Shown piece by piece: positions 230 through 3,078 of a DNA stretch of 33,840 bases. Origin of the DNA: an uncultured Helicobacter sp. (GTDB lineage: Bacteria; Campylobacterota; Campylobacteria; Campylobacterales; Helicobacteraceae). Below the pieces are notes generated by a model. It did not search any database and had not been told where the DNA came from. It saw only the letters and a program-made list of their open reading frames with translations. The stretch spans positions 1-33,840 of the forward strand of contig CAMWUR010000024.1 in the NCBI GenBank assembly GCA_947177485.1, written 5' to 3'. Numbering within the stretch: position 1 is the first letter of the stretch; each line of letters begins with the position of its first letter. The position numbers were made by a program, and so were the translations under genes.

Positions 230-754
230 ATGGAACAGATTTGGTTGCAAAACCTTGATGAGATACACAAAGTCAAAGATTTGGTGCGCATGCGTGCAGG
301 AGGCGCACAAAAGCAGGCAGTCGTTGTGTTTGGCAGTGCGCGTATTCGTGCGGATTCACAAAGCTATGCCGAGGCGCTTGGGGTGAGCACCGAGCTTGCG
401 CGGCGCGGCTATTTTATCGTTACAGGCGGGGGATATGGCATTATGGAAGCGGCAAATCGAGGCGCAAAGGACGGCGGCGCACTCTCTGTTGGGCTCAATA
501 TTTCACTGCCACATGAAGAGATTCCTAACTCCTATCTTGATGTGAGCGTGCAATTTCATGATTTTTGGTTGCGCAAGATGTTTTTCGAGCATATTCTAAT
601 AATCCCAGCCACAGCGCGCAACGTCTATGTTCGAACCGAAAGGCGTAACATAGACGCAGCGCTGTGGAAAATGGGCATAGTCCGTGCGGAGCACAAACCT
701 TTAAAAAGCGTGCTAGGGGTTTGGGGATTGTTAAGAGGGCTATTTCGCAATTAA
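230..754 (+). pseudogene. Truncated LOG-family gene copy
   Basis: The first 120 residues correspond to the full-length LOG gene at 2434-3078, including FGSAR, the GGGYG nucleotide-binding turn and the helix with WLRKMFFE. Homology stops at about base 589, just before the AGGFGTLDE active-site motif. The frame then runs 54 residues through unrelated sequence to a stop at 752-754. Loss of the second catalytic motif makes phosphoribohydrolase activity very unlikely. The native start is ATG at 230, matching the other copy; a GTG at 152 in the same frame is not conserved. Upstream sequence (about 170-229) is also homologous to the region before 2434, so promoter and 5' end were duplicated together. 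Bases 299-468 are identical to 2503-2672. Whether the chimeric ORF is translated is unknown. Confidence 0.85.
622..656. repeat. Inverted repeat in the foreign tail of the truncated LOG copy
   Basis: CGTCTATGTT at 622-631 pairs perfectly with AACATAGACG at 647-656 across a 15-nt loop. It lies just after the point where LOG homology ends (about 589), so it may belong to the sequence that replaced the 3' half of this copy. Confidence 0.65.
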
Positions 755-1262: not shown

Positions 1263-1637
1263 ATGACCAAATTTGTTTCTAGCCTCATCGTTTGCGGTGC
1301 TTTGACAACCGCTTCTTTGTCTGCCGCAGAGCTCAATTATGAGCAAGATATTGCACCGAATGCGCCGAGTGTGCTGTTTGGGCATGCACCCCAAAAGCTC
1401 GATTTGATTTCAATCGCAAGCAATGGCGCGCTCACGGAGCAAAGCGAGGGTGTCTACGTCCTTAGCGCGCTCGAAATGCAAGAGGTGCAAGGTGGAGGAA
1501 GGTTTAAAAAGTTATGGAAAAGGGTCAATGGCAAGCTTTTTGAAGGCACTATTGCTGGAATCATAGCTGGCGTAAATACTGGACCCATTAGCGGAGTTGT
1601 AACTGGAGTTGGCACTGCTCTCGTAAGCAGAAGGTAA
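1263..1637 (+). CDS. Secreted peptide precursor with double-glycine motif and glycine zipper
   Basis: A 124-residue protein. Residues 1-22 form a Sec-type signal peptide (hydrophobic core, then ASLSAA). Residues 67-78 match a double-glycine leader end: L67-S68, E71-M72, V75, G77-G78, with the spacing used by peptidase-containing ABC exporters. After G78 come 46 residues: a basic start (six K/R between 80 and 91), then glycines exactly every fourth residue at 95, 99, 103, 107, 111 and 115, ending SRR. This resembles class II bacteriocins and glycine-zipper toxins such as the Cdz system. Having both a Sec signal and an internal GG site is unusual, and no exporter or C39 peptidase gene is in the window. 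Two small lipoproteins follow, the first 7 bp downstream. Toxin function is inference; a structural glycine-zipper membrane protein is the main alternative. Confidence 0.75.
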   Translation: MTKFVSSLIVCGALTTASLSAAELNYEQDIAPNAPSVLFGHAPQKLDLISIASNGALTEQSEGVYVLSALEMQEVQGGGRFKKLWKRVNGKLFEGTIAGIIAGVNTGPISGVVTGVGTALVSRR

Positions 1638-1644
1638 CAAGCAG

Positions 1645-1896
1645 ATGAAAGTCTTGTTGTCTATTGGAATCATGCTTGTTGCATTGTTTCTCAACGCTTG
1701 CAGCTTGCAACGTCAAGCAAGCGCTGTTGAAATAGGATGCGAGGCTGATAAGGTTGTTTTCCCAAAGGGCGAATCTTCTTTGTTTATGCCCCAATATTGG
1801 GAAGCAAATTGTGGCAATAGAAAATATGTTTGCCAACCATCAGGAATCGCAATATTCCAAGCACCAAGCGCGAAATGCAAGGAACTTGTTCCATAA
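1645..1896 (+). CDS. Small cysteine-rich lipoprotein A (candidate immunity/partner)
   Basis: An 83-residue protein with a lipoprotein signal ending LNAC (C19 lipidated). The mature part holds four cysteines at 32, 56, 63 and 78, plus a YWEANC...RKYVC core. It aligns with lipoprotein B downstream: same length, C-x23-C-x6-C spacing, and shared proline-glycine and WEA-C-R-Y-C residues, so the two are tandem paralogues. The conserved cysteines suggest two disulfides in the periplasm. Start ATG 1645 is 7 bp after the secreted-peptide gene, suggesting co-transcription. I recognise no named family. Its position behind a bacteriocin-like gene suggests immunity, which is inference only. Confidence 0.75.
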   Translation: MKVLLSIGIMLVALFLNACSLQRQASAVEIGCEADKVVFPKGESSLFMPQYWEANCGNRKYVCQPSGIAIFQAPSAKCKELVP

Positions 1897-1965
1897 ATGT
1901 ATCTTGCTTGCCCCTTTGCCGCTTGCGGCGAATGGGGCGATTCTCATTTCAGTAAAGGCAAATCC

Positions 1966-2217
1966 ATGCGTTTTTTGTTGTTAGCAGGTCTCTTGGTTTT
2001 TGTTGTGGGCTGCTATCAAGAAAGAATGACAGCTGCCAGAACAGGCTGTGCGCCCGAAGAGCTTGACTACCCCGAGGGGAAACATTGGATAATAACACCA
2101 ACACATTGGGAGGCGCTTTGCAATGGCAGAAGATATGCTTGCAAAACTAAGCCCGAAAATTTTCTTCTATTTTGGGGTTGGCAAGATACAGAATGCACGT
2201 TGGTTTCTGTGCCATAA
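1966..2217 (+). CDS. Small cysteine-rich lipoprotein B (paralogue of A)
   Basis: An 83-residue protein from ATG 1966. The frame is open further upstream to 1897, but only the 1966 start gives a signal peptide (MRFLLLAGLLVFVVGC, C16 lipidated) and the same length as paralogue A. Cysteines at 28, 52, 59 and 77 match those of A, as does HWEALC...RRYAC. A weak AAAGG precedes the start. Sequence divergence from A is large (I estimate about one third identity), so the duplication is old or the pair diversified under selection. Function unknown; likely exported and lipid-anchored. Confidence 0.75.
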   Translation: MRFLLLAGLLVFVVGCYQERMTAARTGCAPEELDYPEGKHWIITPTHWEALCNGRRYACKTKPENFLLFWGWQDTECTLVSVP

Positions 2218-2433: not shown

Positions 2434-3078
2434 ATGGAACAGATTTTATTGCAAAACCTCGATGAGGTGCAAAGGGTCGAAAACCGCGTGCGTATGCGCG
2501 CTGGAGGCGCACAAAAGCAGGCAGTCGTTGTGTTTGGCAGTGCGCGTATTCGTGCGGATTCACAAAGCTATGCCGAGGCGCTTGGGGTGAGCACCGAGCT
2601 TGCGCGGCGCGGCTATTTTATCGTTACAGGCGGGGGATATGGCATTATGGAAGCGGCAAATCGAGGCGCAAAAGACGGCGGGGCGCTCTCTGTGGGGCTC
2701 AACATCTCGCTGCCACACGAGGAGATTCCAAATTCTTACCTCGATGTGAGCGTGCAATTTCATGATTTTTGGTTGCGCAAGATGTTCTTTGAACAGATTG
2801 CAAGCGCGTTTGTGCTGTTTGCAGGTGGCTTTGGAACGCTCGATGAACTCTTTGATGTGCTCGTGTTGATTCAGACACAAAAGCGCTCACGTCGCCCAAT
2901 TATACTCTATGGCAAAGACTTTTGGACACCGCTTGTGCGCTTTTTTGAACAATCTTTGTTGGCGCAATCATGCATTGAGCAAGGCGAGCTAGAGTTGGTT
3001 AAGATTGTCGAGAATCGCGAGGAGCTTTTGCCGATTCTGCTTGGAGAATCTCGCGAATCTGTGGGTAATGCTCGATAA
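2434..3078 (+). CDS. LOG-family (TIGR00730-type) Rossmann-fold protein
   Basis: A 214-residue LOG/lysine-decarboxylase-like protein. LOG enzymes are cytosolic nucleotide 5'-monophosphate phosphoribohydrolases; in bacteria the substrate is often unknown. Visible motifs are FGSAR (34-38), GGGYG (67-71), catalytic-type R115, and AGGFGTLDE (130-138), a variant of PGGxGTxxE with Ala for Pro and the Glu kept. Start ATG 2434 follows AAAGGAAAA. The 3' end overlaps the convergent glycosyltransferase gene by 80 bp. A 5'-half duplicate lies at 230-588; the block 2503-2672 is identical to 299-468, while sequence after it differs almost only at synonymous sites. Confidence 0.85.
   Translation: MEQILLQNLDEVQRVENRVRMRAGGAQKQAVVVFGSARIRADSQSYAEALGVSTELARRGYFIVTGGGYGIMEAANRGAKDGGALSVGLNISLPHEEIPNSYLDVSVQFHDFWLRKMFFEQIASAFVLFAGGFGTLDELFDVLVLIQTQKRSRRPIILYGKDFWTPLVRFFEQSLLAQSCIEQGELELVKIVENREELLPILLGESRESVGNAR

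Follow-up and report, generated by a model that had tools for sequence, protein, structure and literature searches.

The window analysed here, a stretch of 33,840 nucleotides from an uncultured Helicobacter sp. (contig CAMWUR010000024.1, forward strand), carries at 1263-2217 a cassette of three small genes, namely a secreted double-glycine precursor and two lipoproteins. The cassette is a glycine-zipper-class member of a Fap-like system; the substrates of this system carry a canonical C39 site, which those of Fap do not. The precursor is probably exported in two steps by a Fap-like route and not by an ATP-binding cassette (ABC) exporter; with less certainty, its tail may be antibacterial and the lipoproteins protective. 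It belongs to a large family in which a motif of the type cut by C39 peptidases stands behind a Sec signal, and this family is genetically tied to FapD/FapF.

Precursor family and its double-glycine leader

The features of the precursor gene are as follows.
1263..1637, + strand: double-glycine precursor of 124 amino acids (aa), an open reading frame (ORF) with a leader-alignment match at an expectation (E) value of 8.1e-24
1263..1325, + strand: Sec signal peptide MTKFVSSLIVCGALTTASLSA, ending SLSA/AEL (cleavage site placed by eye; paralogues arranged alike)
1398..1496, + strand: conserved leader KLDLISIASNGALTEQSEGVYVLSALEMQEVQGG (GG codons at 1491-1496)
1497..1634, + strand: predicted mature cationic tail of 46 aa after the GG (from its sequence; net charge +7)
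1545..1607, + strand: glycine zipper, six glycines at period 4

The layout is MTKFVSSLIVCGALTTASLSA / AELN... LSALEMQEVQGG / GRFKKLWKRVNGKLFEGTIAGIIAGVNTGPISGVVTGVGTALVSRR, the slashes marking the end of the Sec signal and the double-glycine site that precedes the 46-aa tail. When the residues of the tail were shuffled 200,000 times, 47 shuffles equalled the period-4 spacing of its six glycines. An earlier sequence-only reading had described a Sec signal, a double-glycine site and a cationic 46-residue zipper tail, and both the ORF and the shuffle test confirmed this. Against the Pfam model Bacteriocin_IIc (PF10439) the precursor gave E 0.0097 and 16.3 bits, under the gathering cut-off of 27.1. 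A single-protein scan of the genome contigs with the precursor as query gave no match, nor did the phage records searched, and a promoter and terminator scan returned chance-level hits only.

With a leader profile (E < 1e-5), 22 paralogous precursors were found in the source genome, all with a Sec signal and a canonical double-glycine leader. The window precursor is one of them, so the cassette is not the isolated one it had been taken for. Across 64 distinct precursors GG was present in all, with hydrophobic residues at −4 (97%), −12 (97%) and −15 (91%), and with E or Q at −8 in 95%. Hydrophobic residues at −4, −12 and −15 together with GG form the classical double-glycine leader pattern, which in these precursors comes after a Sec signal. 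As a control, none of 242 ORFs from the rest of the window matched the leader.

Some tails are of a short class (18-30 aa in the operon-linked precursors, where they are mostly cationic and sometimes contain cysteines), and others are of 90-150 aa. Median identity was 71% for leaders and 20% for tails over 109 pairs with similar leaders, the tail being lower in 108 of 109, and some of these tails were cut by locus ends, which lowers tail identity. In one pair, from matching operons of two species, the leaders were 98% identical and the tails unrelated. A conserved leader with exchangeable cargo is the look of a leader-guided export route, often of a bacteriocin family.

The longer-tailed precursors are usually followed by a protein of about 280-470 aa that has no signal peptide. 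Such partners at L028, L029, L035 and L038 (contigs C1, C26, C66 and C7) showed no credible Pfam match, and one partner protein showed a weak EF-hand match. These proteins are possibly cargo-specific chaperones.

Stand-alone C39 peptidases and FapF-type barrels

The sequence-only reading had pointed to Cdz-type export and to a C39-peptidase ABC exporter elsewhere in the genome. No such exporter was found, and the search led to FapD/FapF instead. A Pfam C39 search of the genome gave eight matches, all in frames of at most 219 aa and none fused to an ABC transporter; a profile search added a ninth, partial copy. At least one of the nine copies is broken and one lies at the contig edge of homology. 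The intact frames have a signal-like N-terminal segment (by eye) and invariant Cys (SCGA), His (PHF) and Asp (DP) residues. Their nearest solved relatives are the C39 domains of PCAT1 and ComA.

These stand-alone peptidases are mostly paired with a FapF-like barrel encoded just upstream. Pfam returned nothing useful for the barrel. A profile of 24 barrel homologues matched FapF in the PDB at 1e-9, the next match being at 0.16. The AlphaFold2 (AF2) model showed 12 long strands with a predicted local distance difference test (pLDDT) score of 78, and the 18 best Foldseek matches of this model were all FapF chains, with E values down to 3e-14 and template-modelling scores of about 0.75. The barrel upstream of the C39 gene is a FapF homologue. 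The N-terminal coiled-coil domain of FapF is missing from it, the barrel starting at about residue 30 of 275, signal peptide included.

The row on contig C40 is operon-like: two short precursors are followed by two barrels, the FapF-like barrel and the C39 gene (L025:3405-3962). The two barrel-like proteins that lie between the short precursors and the FapF-like gene (L025:893-2593) are secreted, are 298 and 264 aa long and had no Pfam match. Contig C46 carries a more distant FapF/FapD-like pair (L030:772-2221), of a type that many Helicobacteraceae without leader-family precursors have.

The precursors are linked to C39 genes both by position and by genome. Of the 22 precursors of the source genome, 15 have a C39 gene no more than 8 kb away, on 7 of 14 contigs; about 7% would do so by chance. 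Among 121 Helicobacteraceae genomes precursors occurred in 19, a strong C39 match in 17 and both in 16, so that a strong C39 was present in 16/19 precursor genomes versus 1/102 others. For Campylobacterales outside this family the corresponding values were 9/11 and 5/357. None of these co-occurrence counts corrects for relatedness, and the C39 threshold was chosen once the data had been seen. In an independent test that made no use of the precursors, loci picked in named genomes by C39 motifs alone numbered 49, of which 30 had a leader-family precursor and 38 a nearby FapF homologue. The hosts with a precursor at the C39 locus include Campylobacter coli, C. troglodytis, Helicobacter pullorum, H. 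rodentium and H. apodemus. In the C. jejuni records C39 was present, with no precursor within the stretch covered.

Two further observations concern these loci. A contig labelled uncultured Bacilli (L192, L193) bears C39, FapF and a Campylobacter-like precursor, and is probably mis-binned. The genome of L135 (G079:C38) has no leader-family precursors, and its C39 gene is broken by two stops, as though the peptidase decayed once its substrates were gone.

On the proposed route, the Sec signal would bring the precursor to the periplasm, as its sequence indicates. A stand-alone periplasmic FapD-type C39 peptidase would then recognise the leader and cut after the GG, at residue 78 of the window precursor, a step suggested by the leader, the linkage and the co-occurrence. 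The freed 46-aa cationic zipper peptide could leave through the FapF-type 12-stranded barrel. As the window itself has no peptidase, those of other loci would act in trans, and a candidate is the peptidase of contig C40, where the leaders of the precursors are among the most similar to that of the window. Less firmly, the peptide may insert in the membranes of competing relatives while the adjacent lipoproteins shield the producer.

In the open-access literature we found no description of Sec-exported double-glycine precursors with FapD/FapF. The family suggests what FapD-type C39 peptidases cut. If this is true, it would show which kind of substrate stand-alone periplasmic C39 peptidases natively cut. 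The family makes the question of the FapD substrate directly testable with a single purified peptidase, and it offers a means of finding unannotated secreted peptides in Campylobacter and Helicobacter.

Lipoproteins and the LOG locus

The two genes that follow the precursor are as follows.
1645-1896, + strand: small lipoprotein 1 (starts 7 bases past the precursor stop; an orthologue-like sequence adjoins LOG in genome G004)
1966-2217, + strand: small lipoprotein 2, a paralogue of lipoprotein 1 (ATG at 1966)

The longer frame that opens at 1897 adds only an upstream extension to lipoprotein 2. The two proteins align over the lipidation cysteine and four more matching cysteines, as had been noted from the letters alone. 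The lipobox is good in lipoprotein 2 (VVGC) and atypical in lipoprotein 1 (LNAC). Pfam and NCBIfam gave nothing credible for the lipoproteins, and neither a lipoprotein profile nor an AF2 model (pLDDT 72) had a significant match in the PDB.

In the source genome the only precursors with lipoproteins directly downstream are the two intact glycine-rich ones, those of the window and of contig C87, where two intact copies and one broken copy are present. Lipoprotein 2 shares 72% identity with the second lipoprotein of contig C15, with a ratio of nonsynonymous to synonymous substitution rates (dN/dS) of about 0.29. Two places have intact lipoproteins beside a precursor reduced to a signal-peptide relic: contig C15 and, in the metagenome-assembled Helicobacter G002, the orthologous LOG locus (G002:C8). 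Lipoprotein 1 shows a dN/dS of about 0.13 between these two loci, which indicates purifying selection; because both precursors are relics, lipoprotein 1 is kept by selection without the peptide. Its persistence beside relic precursors fits retained immunity, and also an independent job.

The cassette is flanked by two copies of a LOG-like gene.
230..754, + strand: truncated LOG-like gene copy (LOG part 230-594; a dispersed repeat at 594-726 takes the place of its end)
2434..3078, + strand: intact LOG-like gene flanking the cassette (syntenic in G002 and G004)

Both LOG copies are real, and the orthologous LOG locus differs in two congeners, having a signal-peptide relic with a lipoprotein in one and a lipoprotein at a contig end in the other. 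The idea of a variable spot between LOG copies is upheld by these comparisons. The repeat at 594-726 spans about 130 bp. About 40 copies of it, 72-96% identical, are spread over the genome, many of them close to contig ends. The repeat probably fragments the assembly.

Competing explanations and known systems

Several results weigh against an antibacterial peptide on a Fap-like route. The p-values of the co-occurrence overstate the case, because the genomes are related and the C39 threshold is post hoc. G001, G084, G130 and other genomes have precursors without a detected strong C39 (most are draft assemblies), and a strong C39 with no leader match was seen in five of the genomes sampled outside the family. 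Many precursors carry a cargo of 90-150 aa that is unlike a bacteriocin, and the C87 tail, though rich in glycine, has just 2 glycines at period 4 and so is no clear zipper. The expected pairing of peptide and lipoprotein held only in part: both intact glycine-rich precursors are paired, whereas 20 of the 22 precursors have no lipoprotein. Judged by the refuting condition of the sequence-only reading, the leader family is widespread without lipoproteins, though not in housekeeping contexts. Lone precursors and lone lipoproteins are both common; related lipoproteins stand by themselves in another genus as well as at the conserved loci C6 and C62, for which G002 has orthologues, and so may have another job. 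The peptide may plausibly be a bacteriocin to which the lipoproteins would give immunity. The wider proposal is of a Campylobacterales secretion and antagonism system that combines Sec-exported double-glycine precursors, swappable toxic cargo, FapD-type maturation, minimal FapF pores and, for the zipper class, lipoprotein immunity. It is tentative, and we hold it somewhat short of an even chance.

The strongest competitor keeps the same export route and makes the cargo structural, the peptides acting at the surface, in biofilm or as amyloid-like material and the lipoproteins as envelope assembly factors. FapD/FapF export amyloid in Pseudomonas (PMC5557850), aggregating surface proteins, CdzC for one, also have glycine zippers (PMC5380434), and the long-class cargo is not bacteriocin-like. 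However, the short-class tails vary greatly and most of them carry a strong positive charge, which sets them apart from repeat amyloids, and unrelated tails stand behind orthologous leaders of 98% identity. We regard structural cargo as rather unlikely. A pheromone-like signalling peptide, with the lipoproteins as receptors or modulators, is far less probable. Individual members weakly match the ComC and BlpC pheromone models (1e-4), which is due to the shared leader type; the loci examined showed no linked sensor kinase, and membrane attack is a better fit to hypervariable tails of cationic or zipper type. Least probable is export of a Cdz-like bacteriocin through a type I system whose ABC transporter carries the C39 domain. 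The GG leader, the zipper tail and the weak Bacteriocin_IIc match would suit it, but it is largely refuted by the lack of a C39-ABC fusion among the C39 matches of the genome, by a Sec signal that a type I substrate does not need, and by linkage to FapD/FapF.

Class II double-glycine bacteriocins and pheromones (PF10439, TIGR01847, ComC) resemble the Helicobacter precursors in the hydrophobic positions −4, −12 and −15 and in GG at −2/−1. They differ in that a Sec signal precedes the Helicobacter leader, with no peptidase-containing ABC exporter, and the window protein stays under the PF10439 cut-off. Caulobacter Cdz likewise has a small secreted zipper peptide with adjacent candidate protection genes. 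Cdz is, however, a type I system with an inner-membrane immunity protein of three transmembrane segments, CdzI (PMC5380434), whereas the Helicobacter cassette would use Sec and a Fap-like route and has lipoproteins.

In the Pseudomonas amyloid system FapD is the peptidase and FapF the pore; FapD resides in the periplasm, and Fap secretion depends on its catalytic Cys (PMC5557850). The target of FapD has been described as unknown (PMC5557850), and the C39 peptidase class to which FapD belongs as uncharacterised (PMC5557850, PMC6173800). Co-located fapD-fapF pairs occur in five further phyla with no cargo assigned (PMC6173800). FapABCE-type genes were not seen in the loci examined, although no search was aimed at them. 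As in Pseudomonas, a stand-alone, signal-bearing C39 peptidase adjoins a homologous 12-stranded outer-membrane barrel, but the Helicobacter barrel is without the N-terminal coiled-coil region of about 80 aa found in FapF. The Helicobacter substrates carry canonical double-glycine leaders, whereas the Fap proteins, according to their authors, have no canonical C39 sites (PMC5557850).
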